A stretch of 64,000 bases of DNA from Dyella choica (lineage in GTDB: Bacteria > Pseudomonadota > Gammaproteobacteria > Xanthomonadales > Rhodanobacteraceae): the NCBI RefSeq assembly GCF_003977665.1, contig NZ_RYYV01000019.1, positions 20,270 to 84,269 of the forward strand, read 5' to 3'. This document shows positions 7,453-24,295 of this stretch, in pieces. Numbering within the stretch: the stretch's first letter is position 1; the number at the start of each line of letters is the position of its first letter. A program made the position numbers and the translations under genes. The notes beneath the pieces were generated by a model. The model was not told the origin of the DNA, searched no databases, and saw only the letters and a list, made by a program, of their open reading frames with translations.

Positions 7453-8634
7453 ATGAGTACACAAGGAAAAAAACTGGCGTGGATCCAGGCACTGCGAGGT
7501 ATCGCGGCCCTGATGGTCGTGATGGTGCACGACCGCGGCGCGCTGGTAGGCGACGGCGGCGCAGGGCGAATGGTTGCCAATGCGCTATTGCCGATGGCCA
7601 TGGGGGTGGATCTGTTCTTCCTCATCAGCGGCTTTCTGATGGTGTTGACCACCCGGGATTTCGACGGCAGCAAAGCGTACGCGTGGGCGTTCACCGCCAA
7701 GCGGATCGCCAGGATCTGGCCCTTGTATGCCATCGTGACGCTGCTGGCCATTGCCGTGGATCACCACGGCCTGCACGGGTTTGCCGATCGGTCCGTGCTA
7801 CTGCCGTATCTGGAAGGGCTGGCTTTCATTCCGCACAACCCTGCTGCGTCCGGCCTTTATTTTCAGATGGCCGTGGGTGTGGCGTGGACCTTGTGCTTCG
7901 AGTGCTATTTCTATCTGGTGTTCGCTCTGTGCATGCTGTTCGGGCGCTGGCGCTACGGAGTGATGGCAGGGTGGTTCGCCTTGACCCTGATAGCGATTCC
8001 GGTTTTGCGCGGAGGCTACCATTTGGGAGTGGCTTCGCAGCCGCTGGTGGAGTGGTCAAGGTATGCCAACCTTGCCATCAATCCGATCGTGTGGGAATTC
8101 GTGTTCGGAATGCTCGCTGGCTGGCTGTATTTGTCCCAATTCACAATCAAGCGCAACGTAATGATCTATTCGAGCGTCGTGCTGTTGACCGCCACGCTGC
8201 TGATTGGATGGCACCGAATCGGCATGGTGAATTTCTTCGGTCCCGCCGGCTGGGGCGCGCCGCTGACGATCCTGTTCTTGGGTGCCGTCATGTTGGCGAA
8301 GAACGGCGCTATGAGGGTTCCCGCGGGGCTGGTGTGGCTGGGGGAGGCTTCCTATTCGCTTTACCTCGTCCATGTCTATGTTTTCGTGCTTGCGCAGCGA
8401 GTGATGATGCCTATTCCGATGGGCGCCGATTCGTTCAGGGCGATGCTCTTTGTAGCGCGTCCCGTGCTTGCCGTTATGGGTGCGTGGCTGGTGTTTCGCT
8501 ATGTCGAAGCGCCGGCCTCGGCATGGGTGCGCAAGTGTTTGCTTCAAATGACGCACAGGCGGCATGCGCAAAGGAGCTTGCCTGCATGGGCAGGCCCGGA
8601 ATCATCCGCCCGTCGTATTTCCGACGGACCTTGA
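7453..8634 (+). CDS. acyltransferase 3 family membrane protein
   Basis: 393 residues, beginning MSTQGKKLAWIQALRGIAALMVVMVH, the signature opening of the acyltransferase 3 (OafA/NodX-like) family: a basic stretch, L-R-G-I-A-A-L, then the conserved His. About ten membrane helices follow. Members O-acylate cell-surface sugars or lipids at the inner membrane. The in-frame sequence upstream to 7225 is not likely coding. A seven-codon frame (MSTYFR, 7436-7456) overlaps the start as ATGA and may couple translation, as no clear ribosome-binding site precedes 7453. Confidence 0.85.
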   Translation: MSTQGKKLAWIQALRGIAALMVVMVHDRGALVGDGGAGRMVANALLPMAMGVDLFFLISGFLMVLTTRDFDGSKAYAWAFTAKRIARIWPLYAIVTLLAIAVDHHGLHGFADRSVLLPYLEGLAFIPHNPAASGLYFQMAVGVAWTLCFECYFYLVFALCMLFGRWRYGVMAGWFALTLIAIPVLRGGYHLGVASQPLVEWSRYANLAINPIVWEFVFGMLAGWLYLSQFTIKRNVMIYSSVVLLTATLLIGWHRIGMVNFFGPAGWGAPLTILFLGAVMLAKNGAMRVPAGLVWLGEASYSLYLVHVYVFVLAQRVMMPIPMGADSFRAMLFVARPVLAVMGAWLVFRYVEAPASAWVRKCLLQMTHRRHAQRSLPAWAGPESSARRISDGP

Positions 8635-8645
8635 GCCTGGAAGGC

Positions 8646-9116
8646 TCAATGCCTGATCACGATCGTGCCGTACGTTTGAGGCAAGTCGCGCATCGCGTTC
8701 AAGGTATGCACCAGCTCGCGATAGCTGCACGCCAGTTGCTCGTACAGCGCCGCATAGGCTTGTCGGGTGACATCGGCTACTCCCTGATAGGCGCTACGCC
8801 CGATGGTGATGAAGTAATCCACGCTAACGCGCCGCCGCTCGGCCAGTCCCGGGAACAGGCCGGCAACCAGCAGGCATTGGTCGCCGACGTCGCGCAACGC
8901 GTCTGCACGGGCCCGGCCAACCAACTCCAGCGCGTGTAGCCAGTCCACGCCTTGTGCATGCGATAACAGCTGGTTGTCAGCCTGGTAACGTAACAGCACG
9001 AACACCAGGTAGCTTTCGCTCGACTCGTCGAGTCGCCGCCCGGTTCGTTCGTATGCTTCCTGCACCAGGGCCTGCCAGACTTCCACTGGCGTGCCATTTC
9101 GGAATGCGTCAAACAT
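8646..9116 (-). CDS. conserved hypothetical protein, 156 aa
   Basis: I do not recognise a domain. The ATG at 9116 has GGGGGAAAG upstream; in-frame starts further upstream lack one. The protein is almost all alpha-helical and soluble, beginning MFDAFRNGTPVEVWQALVQEAYE and with a run of helices that could form a bundle. It is convergent with the acyltransferase gene, which ends 11 bases away. Confidence 0.55.
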   Translation of the reverse strand: MFDAFRNGTPVEVWQALVQEAYERTGRRLDESSESYLVFVLLRYQADNQLLSHAQGVDWLHALELVGRARADALRDVGDQCLLVAGLFPGLAERRRVSVDYFITIGRSAYQGVADVTRQAYAALYEQLACSYRELVHTLNAMRDLPQTYGTIVIRH

Positions 9117-9238
9117 GTCGTCTTTCCCCCCGGTCATCCGACGCCTCCAGCGTAGCGCGCTCAGGACGCAAGTGCTTGGCAGTCGGGTAATGAGGCTGCT
9201 AAGGCTTTGCCTCATTTAACGTCCGTTAGGGCGGCTTC

Positions 9239-9306
9239 GTAGGCTGGGATGGCAATCCCAGCTTCGGGAAGCTACCTGCACAGCTGGGATTGTCATCCCA
9301 GCCTAC
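9239..9306. repeat. REP doublet 3
   Basis: Inverted pair with the same outer GTAGGCTGGGATGG and ATCCCAGCCTAC ends as the others. Confidence 0.9.
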
Positions 9307-9850
9307 GAAGCCTTGAGAATGTGAATCGGGCGGCAGTCATGCTGGGCCCTATTGCTTATCTCCCTAGGACAATTTCTTAGGCGGCGTAAGAGCAAAAAAA
9401 TATAGAGTGGAATTAGAGGCACTTGCGGATTGGCGCAAGCTTTTGCGCATTATGCGTATCACGTTTCCTACACATATTGCTCAGCAATCTCGGTCGTGCA
9501 ATGCGGGCGACGCAATGCGAATGCGCCATTAGGGGCCGCACAGAAAATCTTCGTTGTGGTTGCGCCGGCAACGGCGCAAGCACGGTAGTGGCTTGTGCCG
9601 AAGAACTAGGCGGGTGCAAAAAAAACGCGCCTTGGCTGGTAGGGGAAACTATAGGTACGTACGTCTTGATAATGGTGGGGAATGTTCGCGGCGCGATTGC
9701 ACGCGCTAAGTCGATGCGTTTGTGATGGAGCTTCTTCGAGCAAGAGGCTTGTTGCAGTTCGCACGGATGCTGTCGCTGTTGGTATTACCGCGGCTCTCGG
9801 ATGGTCCGGAGTCGAAACCATGGCCACTTTTGTTTCTGGGGAGAATCAAA
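9307..9850 (+). other. long leader region without a convincing gene
   Basis: About 540 bases ahead of the secreted protein at 9851. It is AT-richer than its surroundings near 9385-9420 and holds a small hairpin, GCGCAAGCTTTTGCGC, at 9433-9448. A 100-codon frame (9423-9725) has cysteine-rich, unlikely composition and no good ribosome-binding site. The region most likely holds the promoter and a long untranslated leader. Confidence 0.4.
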
Positions 9851-10909
9851 ATGCAAGCTAAGTTCAAGTGCGCGCTTTTGGCTGGTCTTATCAGTGCTGC
9901 GTGTGTTCCCGCTGCTTTTGCGGCGCAGCCTGTGAATGTCATGGGGCAGACGGATGAACAGGTCGGCCCGATCGAATCGCTGGCACGCCAGTCGTGGCGT
10001 GAAGACATGGCGCAGATCGCCACGCCGACGGAAGGCTGTTTCCAGGCTTCCTATCCCAGCATCATCTGGCAGCAGGTAGCGTGCAAGGCGGTGACCCCGC
10101 ACGTGCACAGCTTGCCGGCCAAGGTGAAGCAGAAGCATCTGCAGCCGGAGACGACCGGAAATGGCAACGACTACGTGTTGCAGGCACCGGGTTCGTCCCA
10201 CATCAGCAAAACCGTCGGCAGTTTCCCGTCGGTCACGGGCGTGACGTCCGAACAGGGCGTGGGCGTTGCTTCGTTTGGTGGCGGCGGCATTCTTGGACCG
10301 AATGAATATTCACTGCAGATCAACTCGCAATACACGTCCACCACGTCGGCGTGCCATGGCCATTCCGGTTGCACCGTGTGGCAGCAGTTCGTGTATGCAC
10401 CCGACTATGAGGTGCAGGGTGAAGCGGCCGGTTTCATGCAGTACTGGCTGATCGGCTACGGCGGTACCAGCTGCCCGAGCGGCTGGGGCAGCGATGGCTC
10501 GGGTGACTGCTATCGCAACAGCAATTACGTCGCACTGCCCGATGTGCCGGCCACCAAGCTGGCCAGCATGAAGGTGACCGGCTCGGCCACCTCCGGCGGC
10601 AACGACACCATCACCGTCACCTACGGCACCGCCGCTTACAGCGCCAGTGGCAAAGACAGCGTGGTTTACCTCGCCACCGTCTGGAAGCAATCGGAGTTCA
10701 ACGTGGTGGGCAACGCCGGCGGTTCGGAAGCCGACTTCAACAGCGGCGCGTCGATCAAGGTGAAGGTTGCCGCCACGTATGGTTCCACCACCGCACCGTC
10801 TTGTATTGCCAACGCCGGCAGCACCGGCGAGAGCAACAACCTGAACCTGGGCAGCTGCAGTGCCGCAGGTGGTACTTCGCCCTATATCCAGTTCACCGAG
10901 TCGAACTGA
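9851..10909 (+). CDS. secreted protein of unknown function, 352 aa
   Basis: The ATG at 9851 has GGGGAG seven bases upstream and opens a clear signal peptide (MQAKFKCALLAGLISAACV, cleavage after AFAA). The mature protein is rich in Gly, Ser, Thr and Asn with few charges in its C-terminal two thirds, typical of an extracellular beta-sandwich protein; four to six cysteines could form disulfides (TSACHGHSGC, SCPSGWG...GDC). I do not recognise the family. A strong terminator follows 22 bases after the stop, so the gene stands alone. Confidence 0.65.
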   Translation: MQAKFKCALLAGLISAACVPAAFAAQPVNVMGQTDEQVGPIESLARQSWREDMAQIATPTEGCFQASYPSIIWQQVACKAVTPHVHSLPAKVKQKHLQPETTGNGNDYVLQAPGSSHISKTVGSFPSVTGVTSEQGVGVASFGGGGILGPNEYSLQINSQYTSTTSACHGHSGCTVWQQFVYAPDYEVQGEAAGFMQYWLIGYGGTSCPSGWGSDGSGDCYRNSNYVALPDVPATKLASMKVTGSATSGGNDTITVTYGTAAYSASGKDSVVYLATVWKQSEFNVVGNAGGSEADFNSGASIKVKVAATYGSTTAPSCIANAGSTGESNNLNLGSCSAAGGTSPYIQFTESN

Positions 10910-19666: not shown

Positions 19667-21499
19667 TCATTCAGAGGAATTCGCGTACGGATGCTTGTCG
19701 GCGAGCTTGCCGTTGCCGGTATAGGTGGGCGCGCGGGGCGTGTGCTCGTCCATGCTGATCACCACGCGATTGCGGCCGTCGCGCTTGGCGCGATAAAGCG
19801 CGCTATCGGCGGCAAGTAGCAGTCGCCGCAGGTCGTAGCCGTAGTGGGCCGTGGAGGCGATACCGAAGCTGGCGGTAAGTGCGACATGGTCTTGCGTGTC
19901 GTTGGTGGTGGCCTGCAACGCCAGGCGGATCTTTTCTGCGCGTTCGAGCGCCTGGATGAGCGTGGATTCCGGCAGCAGTATGCCGAATTCTTCACCGCCG
20001 ATACGGCCGAATACGTCGCAGGAGTGCAGATGCTGCTGGCAGACCGACACGGCCCGCTTCAATGCGGTGTCGCCCACGACGTGGCCGTGCGTGTCGTTGA
20101 TGTCCTTGAAGTGGTCCAGGTCGATCAGCACCAGGCAGGCCCCACGCAGCGACTTGGCCGCGTAGCGCAGGGTCTGTTCCGCTTCTTCGACGAAATGCTG
20201 GCGATTGAAGATACCGGTAAGACCATCCCGGCGCGCCAGGCGCATGAAGCGCAGTTGCGAGCGCTTGAGGCGATACAGCCAGAAGGCGATCGAGGCCAGC
20301 ACCGTTAGCAGCAGCGTGATGTAAAGGCGACTGGTCACGACGGCTTTGCCGTTGAGTGCCTGCTGCAGCTGCAGGATCTGGTTTTGCTTGTTCAGTTCGT
20401 TGAGTTCGATTTTCTTGGTTTCTACCTGCTGTTTGACGATCTGATAGGAGAGGGCCTTTTCGCGGATGTCATCGAGATGTTCTTTGTCGGCAGCCACATA
20501 TTTTTCGTGATAGGCGAGCGCTTCGCGCAGATTGCCGTACTGCTGCTCAACTTGATAAAGAAGCTGGTAGGCCTTGATCAGGGGTTCGGTGAGGTTGCTC
20601 CTGGAGGCCACATCTACGGTGGCCATGGCATATTTTTGGGCCAGCGCAACGTTGCCTTTCTTCCAGTAGGCCTGCGCGAGAAGCACGTTGTATTCGGCGG
20701 TCAGTGCTTGATAGTTGAGTCCTTTCACTTCATCGTTGGTGGCTTGCAGAATGGCGAGGGCATCATCCGTTCTGTCCTGCTGCAAGTCCAAAACCGCTAT
20801 GTCGCGCCGTATCGTGTCGGCCGCTAGTTTGTCCCCAACATCAAGGCATCGCTTGATGCCTTTCTGAAACAGTTCGCCGGCTATTCGCTTTTGGCCGCCG
20901 CGAATTTCGGCGTGCAATTGGAGCATATGGCCGATGCAGCCAATATTGCCCTTCGGATAATCGGCGATGATCTGCTTGGCATAGCCTGCGGCGAGGTCAT
21001 ATTGACCGACTTCGCTAAGTAGCTGCGAGGCTTCTCCAAGGATCGGAAAGCGCGCTCCTTGATCGGCAACGGGCGGGAGGTTTTCCAGTGCGCGATCCAG
21101 GTATTCGAAGGCTTCCTCGTAGTGATGCTGGACGCCCAGGACGTTGATCAGGGCGGCTGTCGCCCGTGTTCTTAGCTCGTTGTCGGGGGCTTGCTTGACC
21201 ACTGCCTCAAGCAGCGACTTGGCCTTGTCTTCCCGGCCGCTGTAGTCGGCCTGCCAGCCTTCCAGAAAGCGAAGACGCCACTTCTGTGCTTCGGACATTT
21301 CAGTTGTCCGGCCTTCGAGCCCGTCAAGGAGTCTGACAAAGCCAGGGTTGTCGGTGGTTTTTATGCTGTCGGCCTGGACCAGTAGTTGCGTGATGTCGTT
21401 CGAAGCATGTACGGCGGCCATGCCTGTGCTTGCGAGCATGACGAGCAGCAGGAAGATTCCTGCGTACGGCTTCCGGCGTTTGGAGCCGGCGGCGTGCAT
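19667..21499 (-). CDS. periplasmic-TPR / GGDEF diguanylate cyclase
   Basis: 610 residues. Signal or anchor helix at 13-31; helical TPR-like repeats over about 35-345; a coiled stretch at 350-383; a membrane helix at about 389-410; GGDEF domain from RRDGLTGIFNRQ (423) with the active-site motif GGEEF intact at 501-505. The RxxD inhibition site is absent (HSCD instead). It should make cyclic di-GMP in response to a periplasmic signal sensed by the repeats. Its ATG follows the TAA of the borosin precursor gene with no gap (TAAATG), so it is translated from the same message. Confidence 0.88.
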   Translation of the reverse strand: MHAAGSKRRKPYAGIFLLLVMLASTGMAAVHASNDITQLLVQADSIKTTDNPGFVRLLDGLEGRTTEMSEAQKWRLRFLEGWQADYSGREDKAKSLLEAVVKQAPDNELRTRATAALINVLGVQHHYEEAFEYLDRALENLPPVADQGARFPILGEASQLLSEVGQYDLAAGYAKQIIADYPKGNIGCIGHMLQLHAEIRGGQKRIAGELFQKGIKRCLDVGDKLAADTIRRDIAVLDLQQDRTDDALAILQATNDEVKGLNYQALTAEYNVLLAQAYWKKGNVALAQKYAMATVDVASRSNLTEPLIKAYQLLYQVEQQYGNLREALAYHEKYVAADKEHLDDIREKALSYQIVKQQVETKKIELNELNKQNQILQLQQALNGKAVVTSRLYITLLLTVLASIAFWLYRLKRSQLRFMRLARRDGLTGIFNRQHFVEEAEQTLRYAAKSLRGACLVLIDLDHFKDINDTHGHVVGDTALKRAVSVCQQHLHSCDVFGRIGGEEFGILLPESTLIQALERAEKIRLALQATTNDTQDHVALTASFGIASTAHYGYDLRRLLLAADSALYRAKRDGRNRVVISMDEHTPRAPTYTGNGKLADKHPYANSSE

Positions 21500-21790
21500 T
21501 TACTGAGCGGAAGTTGTCGAGGAAGAAGACGGCTGGCGCGTGTCTCTCTCGCCGGGTTCGTCATCCTCTTCTTCTTCTTCCTCCTCCTCTTCGCCCGGCA
21601 TGACATAACCGACAGGTGTTTTCCCCTGCAGCAGTGCCAGCAACTGGGCAGCATCGTTGTTCAAGATGGCCGAGCGAAGCGGGCCTTCAATCGAGGCGTT
21701 GCCAAGCGCTAGTTCCATTGCGTCCTTGGTGATGTCGCCCCATCGAGCTTCACCGCCTATGGTTTCCAAAAAGCGCATGACATTCGACAT
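21500..21790 (-). CDS. putative split-borosin precursor peptide
   Basis: 96 residues from the ATG at 21790 (GGGGG upstream; earlier in-frame starts lack support). Residues 1-56 are helical (MSNVMRFLETIGGEARW ... GPLRSAILNNDAAQLLALLQG), matching the borosin-binding domain of SonA-type precursors, in which short helices end in a gap before the core. Residues 60-66, VGYVMPG, are the likely methylated core, followed by nine Glu, two Asp and one Glu (67-78) and a Ser/Thr tail. Acidic tails after a short hydrophobic core are known in split borosins. The methyltransferase is 166 bases upstream on the same strand. A transport or protease gene is not visible nearby. Confidence 0.8.
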   Translation of the reverse strand: MSNVMRFLETIGGEARWGDITKDAMELALGNASIEGPLRSAILNNDAAQLLALLQGKTPVGYVMPGEEEEEEEEEDDEPGERDTRQPSSSSTTSAQ

Positions 21791-21956
21791 CCAAAATACC
21801 CCCGTATCCAATGCTTGGGCGCCCCTCGGTGGGCAATCGTCATCGTCCCTGCTGAGTGACTGACGCATCATCATATCGCGCAACGGATGGAGGCGTCGCC
21901 GATATCTGCGGGAACAAGGCGTTGCCTCCCTTGTTTATCCCTGCGAATGGCCGCTC

Positions 21957-22754
21957 TCAGGCCAATGCCTCCAGGCGGGCGCGAATTTCATGGTCGGCCT
22001 CCAGCGGTCGAGCCGGCGGGATGGCCAGCGTGTCGGCCATGCCGAATTCAGCCAGTGGCAAGGCCCCTAGCGCAAGCAACTCCCTGCGAGGGGACTGGAA
22101 GGGCAGGGTGGCGGCACGATAGATCACCACTTGATGGTCCAGGGTGTAGTGCCGCGCGAGCACATCCACCAGCACCTGGCGATGTGCCTCGCCGGTCGAG
22201 AAACGCATGAGTGTTTTGTCGCCCGCTACCCCGACCTGCCACAGGATCAGCCACGCGCTCGGATCGATACAGCGGCGATAAAGCATGAACTGACTGGCTT
22301 CGTAATGCTGGCAGCCGCGGGCGCCTGGGTCGATGCCGAGATCGGCATACAGGCAGTCTTCGGAGGAAATGCCCGGTTCCATGTGGGCGTGGTAGCCCTT
22401 GCTGCGCGCGGTCCGGATGGCCTTGTGCGGGACCCAGGCGAAGACGCCTGGGTGTCCGTAGAACACGCCGCAGACGCGCCTGCCGGCACTTACCTCGGCC
22501 ATGATGGCGTTCACCATCTGCCGGTAGGTCTTCATCCTCGACTTGCCTTCCTGGTAGTACGGCTGCAGGCTGCGCACGTCTTCGTTCATGCCTTGCAGCC
22601 ACAGTTCGACGATGCCGTCGGACACCAGGGTGAACACCACATCGGCCTGTTCGATATAGGCGTGGGCGCGCCGGCTGAGGTGGGATCCCAGCGTCATGCC
22701 TATACCCACGCAGGCCAGGCTTCCCTTGGGCTGTATGCTGTCCAAAACTTCCAT
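21957..22754 (-). CDS. split-borosin alpha-N-methyltransferase (SonM/OphMA-like, TP-methylase fold)
   Basis: 265 residues. The order of motifs is that of the tetrapyrrole-methylase fold as used by borosin enzymes: GSLACVGIGMTLGSHLS (11-27), DVVFTLVSDG (38-47), R73-M-K-T-Y77 in the TYRQMVNAI helix, VFYGHPGVFAWVPH (97-110) for S-adenosylmethionine, MEPGISSEDCLYADLGIDPG (125-144) and the C-terminal DHQVVIYRAA. These match my memory of Shewanella SonM closely along the whole length, and R73/Y77 align with its catalytic Arg and Tyr. Cobalamin/uroporphyrin methylases are the main alternative, but the neighbouring acidic-tailed peptide argues for a borosin. The start is uncertain: AGGGG abuts the ATG; a TTG three codons later is possible. 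Confidence 0.85.
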   Translation of the reverse strand: MEVLDSIQPKGSLACVGIGMTLGSHLSRRAHAYIEQADVVFTLVSDGIVELWLQGMNEDVRSLQPYYQEGKSRMKTYRQMVNAIMAEVSAGRRVCGVFYGHPGVFAWVPHKAIRTARSKGYHAHMEPGISSEDCLYADLGIDPGARGCQHYEASQFMLYRRCIDPSAWLILWQVGVAGDKTLMRFSTGEAHRQVLVDVLARHYTLDHQVVIYRAATLPFQSPRRELLALGALPLAEFGMADTLAIPPARPLEADHEIRARLEALA

Positions 22755-22831
22755 CCCCTACTGCTTGCGTAGCGGTATTGTGCCCTGGGCGGCGATGGTC
22801 GAGCGCCTTGACAGCTTGGATGGGAGCAGAC

Positions 22832-23467
22832 TTGAGCGAGCGCGCGACACCGGATGATTGGGATTTGCCTGATCCTGAAAGATCCGGCCGAACGTTCGTC
22901 TACGTGCTGCCGTCCCAGGGTGAGGACTTGACCAAGCTGGGTTTCACGCAAGATCCGGTGCAGCGGTTTCGCAGTTTCCATCCGCGGTTCTTCGCTTTGT
23001 TCGACCTGGAAAGCGGCCTGCTGGTGGAGACCGGGCGGCTGCGCGACGCACGGCGATTGGAGCGGTTGCTGATCGAGCGTTGGCCGGACCATCGCGCCCC
23101 GGCTCCCTTGTTGGTGGCGGAGGCAGCCGGCGGTCACACCGAATGGTTCCGTGGTATAGGGGGAGAGGTGGATGCATTCGTACGCCGTACAGCGGAGCGT
23201 TACGGCTATGCATTGCATGCGCCCTTGAGCGCCTGGCTGCGTGCGCGCTTTTCGGAGCGGGCGGACCAGCTTTACGAGTGGTCGCAGCGTCTGCTGGAGA
23301 TGATCGAGTGGCAAACAGCGAATCTGCCGCCGGAGGAACGCAATCTACGTTATGCCAAGGCGCTGCGTGACAATCTCGACGCTTGTCACGCAGTCGGCAT
23401 GAATCTGCATGCACTGTTGCCGGCCAGGGTGATGGCCTGGTATGCATCCGCGCGAGGCAACGGCTAG
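22832..23467 (+). CDS. GIY-YIG-like (T5orf172 / MUG113 type) nuclease-domain protein
   Basis: 211 residues from a TTG at 22832, five bases after GGGAGC; an ATG at 22820 is the alternative. The N-terminal 80 residues have the GIY-YIG pattern of the T5orf172 group: FVYVLPSQG, LTKLGFTQDPVQRFRSFHPRF, then an Arg- and Glu-containing helix, RRLERLLIERW. The remaining part is helical and unassigned. The gene is divergent from the borosin operon, 77 bases away. Whether it acts on DNA is unknown. Confidence 0.65.
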   Translation: MSERATPDDWDLPDPERSGRTFVYVLPSQGEDLTKLGFTQDPVQRFRSFHPRFFALFDLESGLLVETGRLRDARRLERLLIERWPDHRAPAPLLVAEAAGGHTEWFRGIGGEVDAFVRRTAERYGYALHAPLSAWLRARFSERADQLYEWSQRLLEMIEWQTANLPPEERNLRYAKALRDNLDACHAVGMNLHALLPARVMAWYASARGNG

Positions 23468-23548
23468 ATGCAGCTCGTCCGGTGACGCTGCTGACAGTAT
23501 GTTGTCAGCAGCCTCGATTAAGCTGCGCATACCTTTTTTGTGGAACCC

Positions 23549-24295
23549 ATGGACATGACCACGCCAAGCATCACCCTGTACGCCACCCGCCCTGGTTTCG
23601 GCATGCCGGAAACCAGTCCGTTCGTGATCAAGACCGAAGTGCAGCTAAAAATGGCGGATCTGTCGTATGGACGGGAATCCACCATTCCGCCGTTGGCGCC
23701 CAAGGGCAAAGTGCCGTACCTGTTGGATGATGGCGAAGTGGTGTGCGATTCCACCTTTATTCGCGCGCATCTGGAACGCAAGTATGGCGTGGATCTGGAC
23801 GAGGGCCTGGACGCGCACCAGCGTGCGCAATCCTGGGCGATCGAACGGATGCTGGAAGATCATCTGTATTTCGCCATGGTGTGGTTCCGCTGGATCGTGC
23901 CGGAGAATTTCGCCAAGGGGCCGGCGCAATTTGCCAACGGCGCGCCGGAGGAGCAACGCGAAGCCCTGCGCCGTGAGATGCAGTCGCGCAAGGATGGCGA
24001 CTTGCGTAGCCACGGTATCGGCCGGCATTCGGCGGGCGAGATCGCGGCCCTGGGCGTGCGTTCCATCGATGCTCTGGCCGCCTTGCTGGGCGACAAGCCT
24101 TATTTGATGGGCGAAAGAATGACCGCTGTGGATGCGACGGCCTTGGGGGTGTTGGCGTCCATCCTTACGTCGTTCTTCGATACGCCGCTGCGCGATGCCG
24201 TGGCCAGCCGGCCGAACCTGGTCGCGTACGTGAGCAAGCTGATGCAACGGTATTACCCGGAGCATGCGTGGGAGCCGGCCGCGGAGGCCGTTTGA
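23549..24295 (+). CDS. glutathione S-transferase family protein
   Basis: 248 residues. An N-terminal thioredoxin-like part has ITLYATRPGFGMPETSPF, then PKGKVPYLLDDGEVVCDSTFI, the cis-Pro loop and the glutathione-binding D-S pair of GSTs. The C-terminal helical part ends YLMGERMTAVDATALGVLASIL, the N-capping motif of the family. This form, with a short Pro-rich active-site loop and no Cys, resembles the FAX/Tom37-like group. Start at 23549 is favoured by TGGA upstream; 23555 is possible. Confidence 0.82.
   Translation: MDMTTPSITLYATRPGFGMPETSPFVIKTEVQLKMADLSYGRESTIPPLAPKGKVPYLLDDGEVVCDSTFIRAHLERKYGVDLDEGLDAHQRAQSWAIERMLEDHLYFAMVWFRWIVPENFAKGPAQFANGAPEEQREALRREMQSRKDGDLRSHGIGRHSAGEIAALGVRSIDALAALLGDKPYLMGERMTAVDATALGVLASILTSFFDTPLRDAVASRPNLVAYVSKLMQRYYPEHAWEPAAEAV

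Follow-up and report, generated by a model that had tools for sequence, protein, structure and literature searches.

What the peptide of a bacterial split-borosin locus is made for is a question raised by three adjoining genes of Dyella choica; the enzymes of such systems are well studied, and none had been tied to a final product as of 2021, according to the Discussion of PMC8429565. The genes lie in a stretch of 64,000 nucleotides (contig NZ_RYYV01000019.1, positions 20,270 to 84,269; hereafter the window, in whose numbering all positions are given unless a locus is named), in which an initial annotation made from the letters alone had described a borosin-type methyltransferase gene and a small precursor gene with an acidic tail. 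The open reading frames (ORFs), strand and order of these two genes were as described, and the locus was found to run gapless past 21500 to 19667, with the minus-strand order methyltransferase (22754-21957), precursor (21790-21500) and a TPR-GGDEF gene (21499-19667), the ATG of the last (21499) directly abutting the TAA of the precursor. This third gene, absent from the earlier description, bears most on the function of the locus. On balance we favor, by a modest lean, the reading that an N-methylated peptide derived from the precursor is the signal for the predicted periplasmic TPR domain encoded by this gene, and that it thereby sets the synthesis of cyclic di-GMP (c-di-GMP).

The 265-aa product of 21957-22754 was assigned by homology as a SonM-like peptide backbone N-methyltransferase of the split-borosin type. 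When compared to the sequences in the PDB using phmmer, its top match was SonM (PDB 7ltc, E 1.2e-76), and the next matches after the SonM structures were fungal OphMA-type borosin enzymes, a ranking that bears out the SonM/OphMA pattern ascribed to it earlier. The enzyme is identical to SonM at 128 of 251 aligned residues, and the annotated motifs TYRQMVNAI, VFYGHPGVFAWVPH and MEPGISSEDCLYADLGIDPG were all found in it. The catalytic Tyr/Arg/Tyr is kept, as Y67 and the previously singled-out R73 and Y77 align with Y58, R67 and Y71, which are named as catalytic in SonM (PMC8429565).

The precursor coding sequence (21503-21790, minus strand, with its TAA at 21500-21502) encodes 96 aa from the ATG. 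It is considered genuine because 10 homologues were found (57–66% identical) and because around half of the differences to three Dyella orthologues fall on third codon positions (45/82, 53/100 and 53/107), which rules out a chance ORF; a matching Met supports the start in nine of the 10 non-window homologues, the tenth (P0011) being a shorter piece. Residues 1-54 (21629-21790) constitute the predicted leader, or borosin-binding domain, with AlphaFold2 (AF2) helices at 3-13, 15-19, 22-31, 37-43 and 47-53 and no structure beyond (whole-chain mean predicted local distance difference test score, pLDDT, 71.5). A profile made from 16 precursors matched SonA in the PDB (E 8e-6) over residues 1-53, the region of the match being its borosin-binding domain (PMC8429565); single precursors used as phmmer queries against the PDB did not find SonA, which only the profile retrieved. 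A Foldseek search with the precursor model ranked a SonA chain first and returned SonA in nine of 23 rows (TM-target ≤0.75, all E-values >1). Comparison by hidden Markov models thus links enzyme to SonM and precursor to SonA, and the profile match and the five helices at residues 3-53 agree with the borosin-type leader of the initial annotation. Behind the leader the sequence reads KTPV60GYVMPG, followed, as had been noted, by nine Glu (67-75) and DDE, the predicted hydrophobic core being VGYVMP (residues 60-65, 21596-21613, between leader and tail) and the acidic tail E67-E78 (21557-21592). By analogy, the window enzyme may methylate this core at the proposed residues 61-64. Enzyme and precursor are thus, by homology, a split-borosin locus resembling type IV, and as a pair alone they belong to an already known kind.

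The 610-aa product of the third gene (19667-21499, minus strand) is, judged from its sequence, a predicted diguanylate cyclase with the architecture TPR, transmembrane (TM) segment and GGDEF, and with an intact GG[D/E]EF motif; Pfam assigned it to GGDEF (6e-39) and TPR_12 (2.4e-8). It comprises an N-terminal hydrophobic segment (residues 12-30, a predicted signal peptide), a predicted periplasmic TPR sensor domain (residues 33-384, 20348-21403; AF2 mean pLDDT 92.3), a TM-like segment (residues 386-404) and a predicted cytoplasmic GGDEF domain (19766-20233) with an intact GGEEF. GGEEF and the TM-like segment between TPR and GGDEF were found in all of 107 cyclases compared, and an N-terminal hydrophobic segment above threshold in 70 of these, the window copy included. 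The RxxD inhibitory site is lacking in the window copy; it is present with proper spacing in 89/107, by which its loss as a family trait is ruled out. Cys188 and Cys218 of the TPR domain were invariant in 42/42 sequences and the sole Cys residues in 41 of them.

The TPR-GGDEF gene follows the enzyme with great regularity. It was found downstream in 56 of 57 loci from named genomes (Dyella, Lysobacter, Luteimonas, Pseudoxanthomonas, Steroidobacter, Rheinheimera, Shewanella, Alteromonas, Pleionea and others), the remaining locus (L034; L, G and C numbers are our labels for loci, genomes and contigs) stopping at a contig end; the closest loci were those of Dyella, with 80–85% enzyme identity. The full enzyme set comprised these 57 loci, the window with its three paralogues and another 60 regions, or 124 genes, 121 of them distinct once L105, L117 and L141 (repeats of L005, L007 and L016) were dropped. 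A TPR-GGDEF gene lies within 2.5 kb downstream of 107 of the 113 distinct enzymes with at least 45% identity, the other six being three cyclase fusions (L094-L096), the contig end L034, L104 and the second enzyme of L124; none of the eight enzymes below 45% identity has such a neighbor. A precursor-like ORF accompanies 108/113 of the related enzymes at E ≤ 1 and 103/113 at E ≤ 1e-3 (E-values refer to a collection of 337 small ORFs), and precursor stop and cyclase start are a median 12 bp apart (105 measured, with cyclase start codons picked by rule).

The same association holds across genomes. Among 147 genomes of the window's family, 94 gave a match to the enzyme (E ≤ 1e-30) and 92 one to the TPR domain (E ≤ 1e-10), all 92 being enzyme-positive as well; the two genomes with the enzyme only (G098 and G130) carry a fusion with a divergent TPR part, and the 53 genomes without an enzyme match gave no TPR match either at the thresholds used. 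The Fisher value for this co-occurrence is no true probability because the genomes are not independent, and in two genera members that lack both genes (G017 in g1; G008 and G032 in g9) stand beside members with both. Nine of 369 genomes drawn from the class had an enzyme match (E ≤ 1e-25), two of these in the window's family. The window genome itself harbors two more enzyme-cyclase loci (C56 and C23), and a single borosin enzyme of divergent sequence is encoded on C12.

The precursor was found to accompany the cyclase also where the enzyme does not. A set of 20 regions with 21 TPR-cyclase genes was taken that lie away from every enzyme match in the family genomes, and in 18 of these regions a precursor (E < 1e-8) is encoded just upstream of the cyclase. 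Further cyclases occur at the enzyme loci themselves: 26 extra copies, less three duplicate loci and three fusions, left 20, of which two, at the edges of L151 and L153, allowed no judgement, and nine of the 18 testable ones have a precursor of their own. Divergence points in the same direction, with a partial distance correlation between precursor and TPR of 0.60 vs 0.27 between precursor and enzyme (99 linked units), and of 0.49 vs 0.28 for precursor-TPR and precursor-GGDEF (126 units), or 0.50 vs 0.10 in the 27 unlinked or tandem units. With TPR columns matched to the GGDEF length, the same three comparisons gave 0.57 vs 0.32, 0.46 vs 0.33 and 0.48 vs 0.14. Precursor and TPR-cyclase genes are thus a genetic pair that usually persists when the methyltransferase is lost, relocated or shared, as far as gene content and divergence reveal.

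At one unlinked region, a methyltransferase remnant of 74 residues with 40% identity was observed upstream of the precursor-cyclase pair (L156:864-1070), as if the enzyme gene had decayed and the pair were served in trans.

Homology identifies the genes, and their order, linkage and pairing are documented above; the proposed signal function builds on the fact that the precursor gene is usually kept beside the sensor gene even where no enzyme gene is near. As in SonM-SonA, the leader is predicted to dock on the enzyme, whereupon the core around V60-M64 would gain N-methyl groups. Leader and acidic tail would then be removed and the core moved to the periplasm, where the precursor product would act as ligand and the TPR-cyclase as receptor. 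The TPR superhelix might bind the peptide in the manner of the pheromone receptors Rap, NprR and AimR, and the single TM segment would pass binding on to the intact GGDEF domain. A superhelix like those of Rap, NprR and AimR was indeed seen by fold comparison; the fold is common, which makes this weak evidence.

Several observations weigh against such a signal. Human APPBP2 (25.7), APC/C chain O (23.5) and LGN (22.1) scored alongside Rap in the fold comparison, TPR superhelices being common. The pairing is imperfect: the 20 unlinked regions include one whose precursor is split over two ORFs (L161) and two with only a disrupted remainder of it (L154 and L162), the second cyclase of L155 has no precursor, and the other nine of the 18 testable extra cyclases have none of their own. 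The covariation between precursor and TPR comes mostly from the leader; for the 12-residue core alone the correlation was 0.08 with TPR when GGDEF was held constant and 0.28 the other way. Quicker evolution of the TPR part could also inflate its correlation, and nearest-neighbor agreement of precursor type did not separate TPR (0.952), GGDEF (0.960) and enzyme (0.949). No dedicated protease or exporter was recognized in the cassette or beside the precursor, and although the TPR domain is predicted to be periplasmic, no export signal is evident in the precursor. A pepsin-like protease as maturation enzyme is likewise unsupported in the window genome, where PF00026, the family that includes shewasin A, had no match (7/147 genomes in the family), a weak negative because none of 14 control genomes matched. 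Lastly, the acidic tail is disfavored as the TPR ligand because the TPR domain is itself net negative (−9 in the window, median −7).

The main rival to a peptide signal is control in the reverse direction, in which the membrane cyclase senses something else and governs borosin making, serving as a scaffold or supplying local c-di-GMP that acts on the methyltransferase or on the precursor. It owes this rank to the natural TPR-GGDEF-methyltransferase fusions, in which the enzyme sits at the predicted cytoplasmic end of the cyclase, and the near contiguity of precursor and cyclase genes is also compatible with it. Cyclases away from the enzyme nevertheless mostly retain the precursor and not the enzyme, an additional precursor comes with half of the testable extra cyclases, and precursor divergence follows TPR more closely than enzyme; we regard reverse control as unlikely, at roughly one chance in five. 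Somewhat less probable still is that the whole precursor is the partner of the cyclase, for instance with the leader on its cytoplasmic part, while modification only tunes or disarms it and no peptide is released. The leader-borne covariation and the lack of a recognized exporter or protease gene beside the precursor would fit this, as would relatives that end in polar, His-containing or Lys-rich segments without a hydrophobic core; set against it are the match of the leader to the enzyme-binding domain of SonA and the predicted periplasmic location of the covarying TPR part. Biosynthetic clusters often contain regulators, and the locus could accordingly make an ordinary borosin natural product with the cyclase as a bystander that only co-regulates production; this is improbable, as the TPR domain is fully nested within enzyme-positive genomes at the thresholds used and the precursor is retained beside cyclases without an enzyme gene nearby. 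That the locus is no borosin system at all, and holds a tetrapyrrole methylase adjoining an unrelated acidic ORF, agrees with the broad Pfam family of the enzyme (TP_methylase, 2.6e-20) and is otherwise ruled out as its identity, with a negligible chance left, by the SonM and fungal borosin matches in the PDB, by the match of the precursor profile to SonA and by the NCBIfam tetrapyrrole-methylase models listed, all far under their cut-offs (best 28.6 of 525 bits), so that the cobalamin or siroheme methylase considered in the initial annotation was not encountered.

In the precursor relatives, a short segment comes behind the leader and is itself trailed by acidic residues, many aligned relatives having V-C-hydrophobic-P in the core segment. 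In 120 of 126 precursor units, 20 consecutive residues of which 30% or more are Asp/Glu occur after the leader, and two of the six exceptions (L037 and L161) seem to be misframed or split ORFs. Sorted by a simple pattern where the leader begins, 90/126 units were assigned to type I, many with the V-C-hydrophobic-P core, and 36/126 to type II, in which the segment is more polar and often contains His. A Cys within 18 residues from position 53 was found in 53 of the 90 type I precursors, the window copy having Gly there. The precursors of L104 and of the second L124 enzyme, which have no full cyclase, lack a comparable acidic tail, and so do those of the three fusions, where the cyclase is present. 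Two precursors carry a long Lys/Arg-rich extension behind the acidic stretch (L009:7417-7848 and L024:7473-7904).

Variant loci were also observed. The fusions, from three genomes of one genus (L094-L096; L095:559-3171, plus strand), are single ORFs of TPR-TM-GGDEF-borosin methyltransferase, directly preceded by a precursor-like ORF that looks SonA-like by eye. The divergent enzyme of the window genome (L064 on contig C12, minus strand, 8222-10449 in reversed orientation) has 434 aa with an extra C-terminal part of around 170 aa and the ORF after it contains TTEVTTEV repeats, an arrangement like that of the class in which enzyme and binding domain are fused and the core is separate. Methyltransferase and GNAT acetyltransferase form single ORFs of 452-485 aa in three cases (L009:5902-7359, L015:4716-6098 and L024:6004-7362), and a GNAT match lies within 0.7 kb on the same strand at 37/113 enzyme loci, which suggests peptide acetylation in some lineages. 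GNAT is ruled out as an obligate partner by this count and by the lack of any GNAT match in the window between 14001 and 27500. Divergently upstream of the methyltransferase (22778-24295, plus strand) are a T5orf172-type gene and a glutathione S-transferase gene, which recur at the Dyella loci L005-L007, L101, L108 and L115 (L039 has a distant match to the former) and are probably mere neighbors. A scan for promoters and terminators returned no signal beyond what chance would give.

With a precursor that keeps to a sensory diguanylate cyclase even where no enzyme is adjacent, a whole clade of borosins gains a concrete function open to testing, namely peptide signaling to c-di-GMP and perhaps on to biofilm and motility. 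Tentatively, the locus might represent a Gram-negative pheromone circuit unlike known ones, in which a ribosomal, backbone-N-methylated peptide acts through a periplasmic Rap-like TPR receptor on a membrane-joined diguanylate cyclase, several pairs per genome share methyltransferases, and borosins are c-di-GMP signals, not antibiotics. If true, backbone-methylated peptides would join the known bacterial signals and supply engineering with natural pairs of ligand and receptor. We regard as new, with prior notice possible, that precursor and TPR-cyclase are paired, that the pair survives where no enzyme is near and that the fold resembles that of pheromone receptors; no paper linking borosins to c-di-GMP was found in the openly licensed literature searched, and two main borosin surveys lie outside it.

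With SonM/SonA, the type IV split borosin of Shewanella oneidensis described in PMC8429565, the window shares a separate enzyme (around 263 aa) and adjacent small precursor, the active-site Tyr/Arg/Tyr and a five-helix leader domain of around 53 residues. The window precursor differs in its 96 aa, acidic tail and Pro-bounded core from SonA with 71 aa (PMC8429565), and the coupled TPR-GGDEF gene of the window may be a further difference. Some link between borosins and GGDEF is already in print, as the legend of Figure 1 in PMC11395268 mentions, without detail, a borosin type shown together with a GGDEF domain; in the window the two are separate genes, and single-ORF fusions were seen only in L094-L096. 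The RRNPP receptors (Rap-Phr, NprR-NprX and AimR-arbitrium) share 9–13% sequence identity with the window TPR domain. Unlike these cytoplasmic receptors with a transcription-factor or phosphatase output, the window protein has a predicted exported, periplasmic TPR domain joined through a TM segment to a GGDEF output, and is for this reason not filed as an RRNPP member; its presumed peptide moreover lacks an evident Sec signal and is predicted to carry N-methyl groups. RpfR-type quorum-sensing receptors, which have a PAS-GGDEF-EAL build and control c-di-GMP, share with the peptide signal proposed here the tie between a cell-cell signal and c-di-GMP control. Their signal is a fatty acid (PMC6361424), whereas that of the window would be a peptide.
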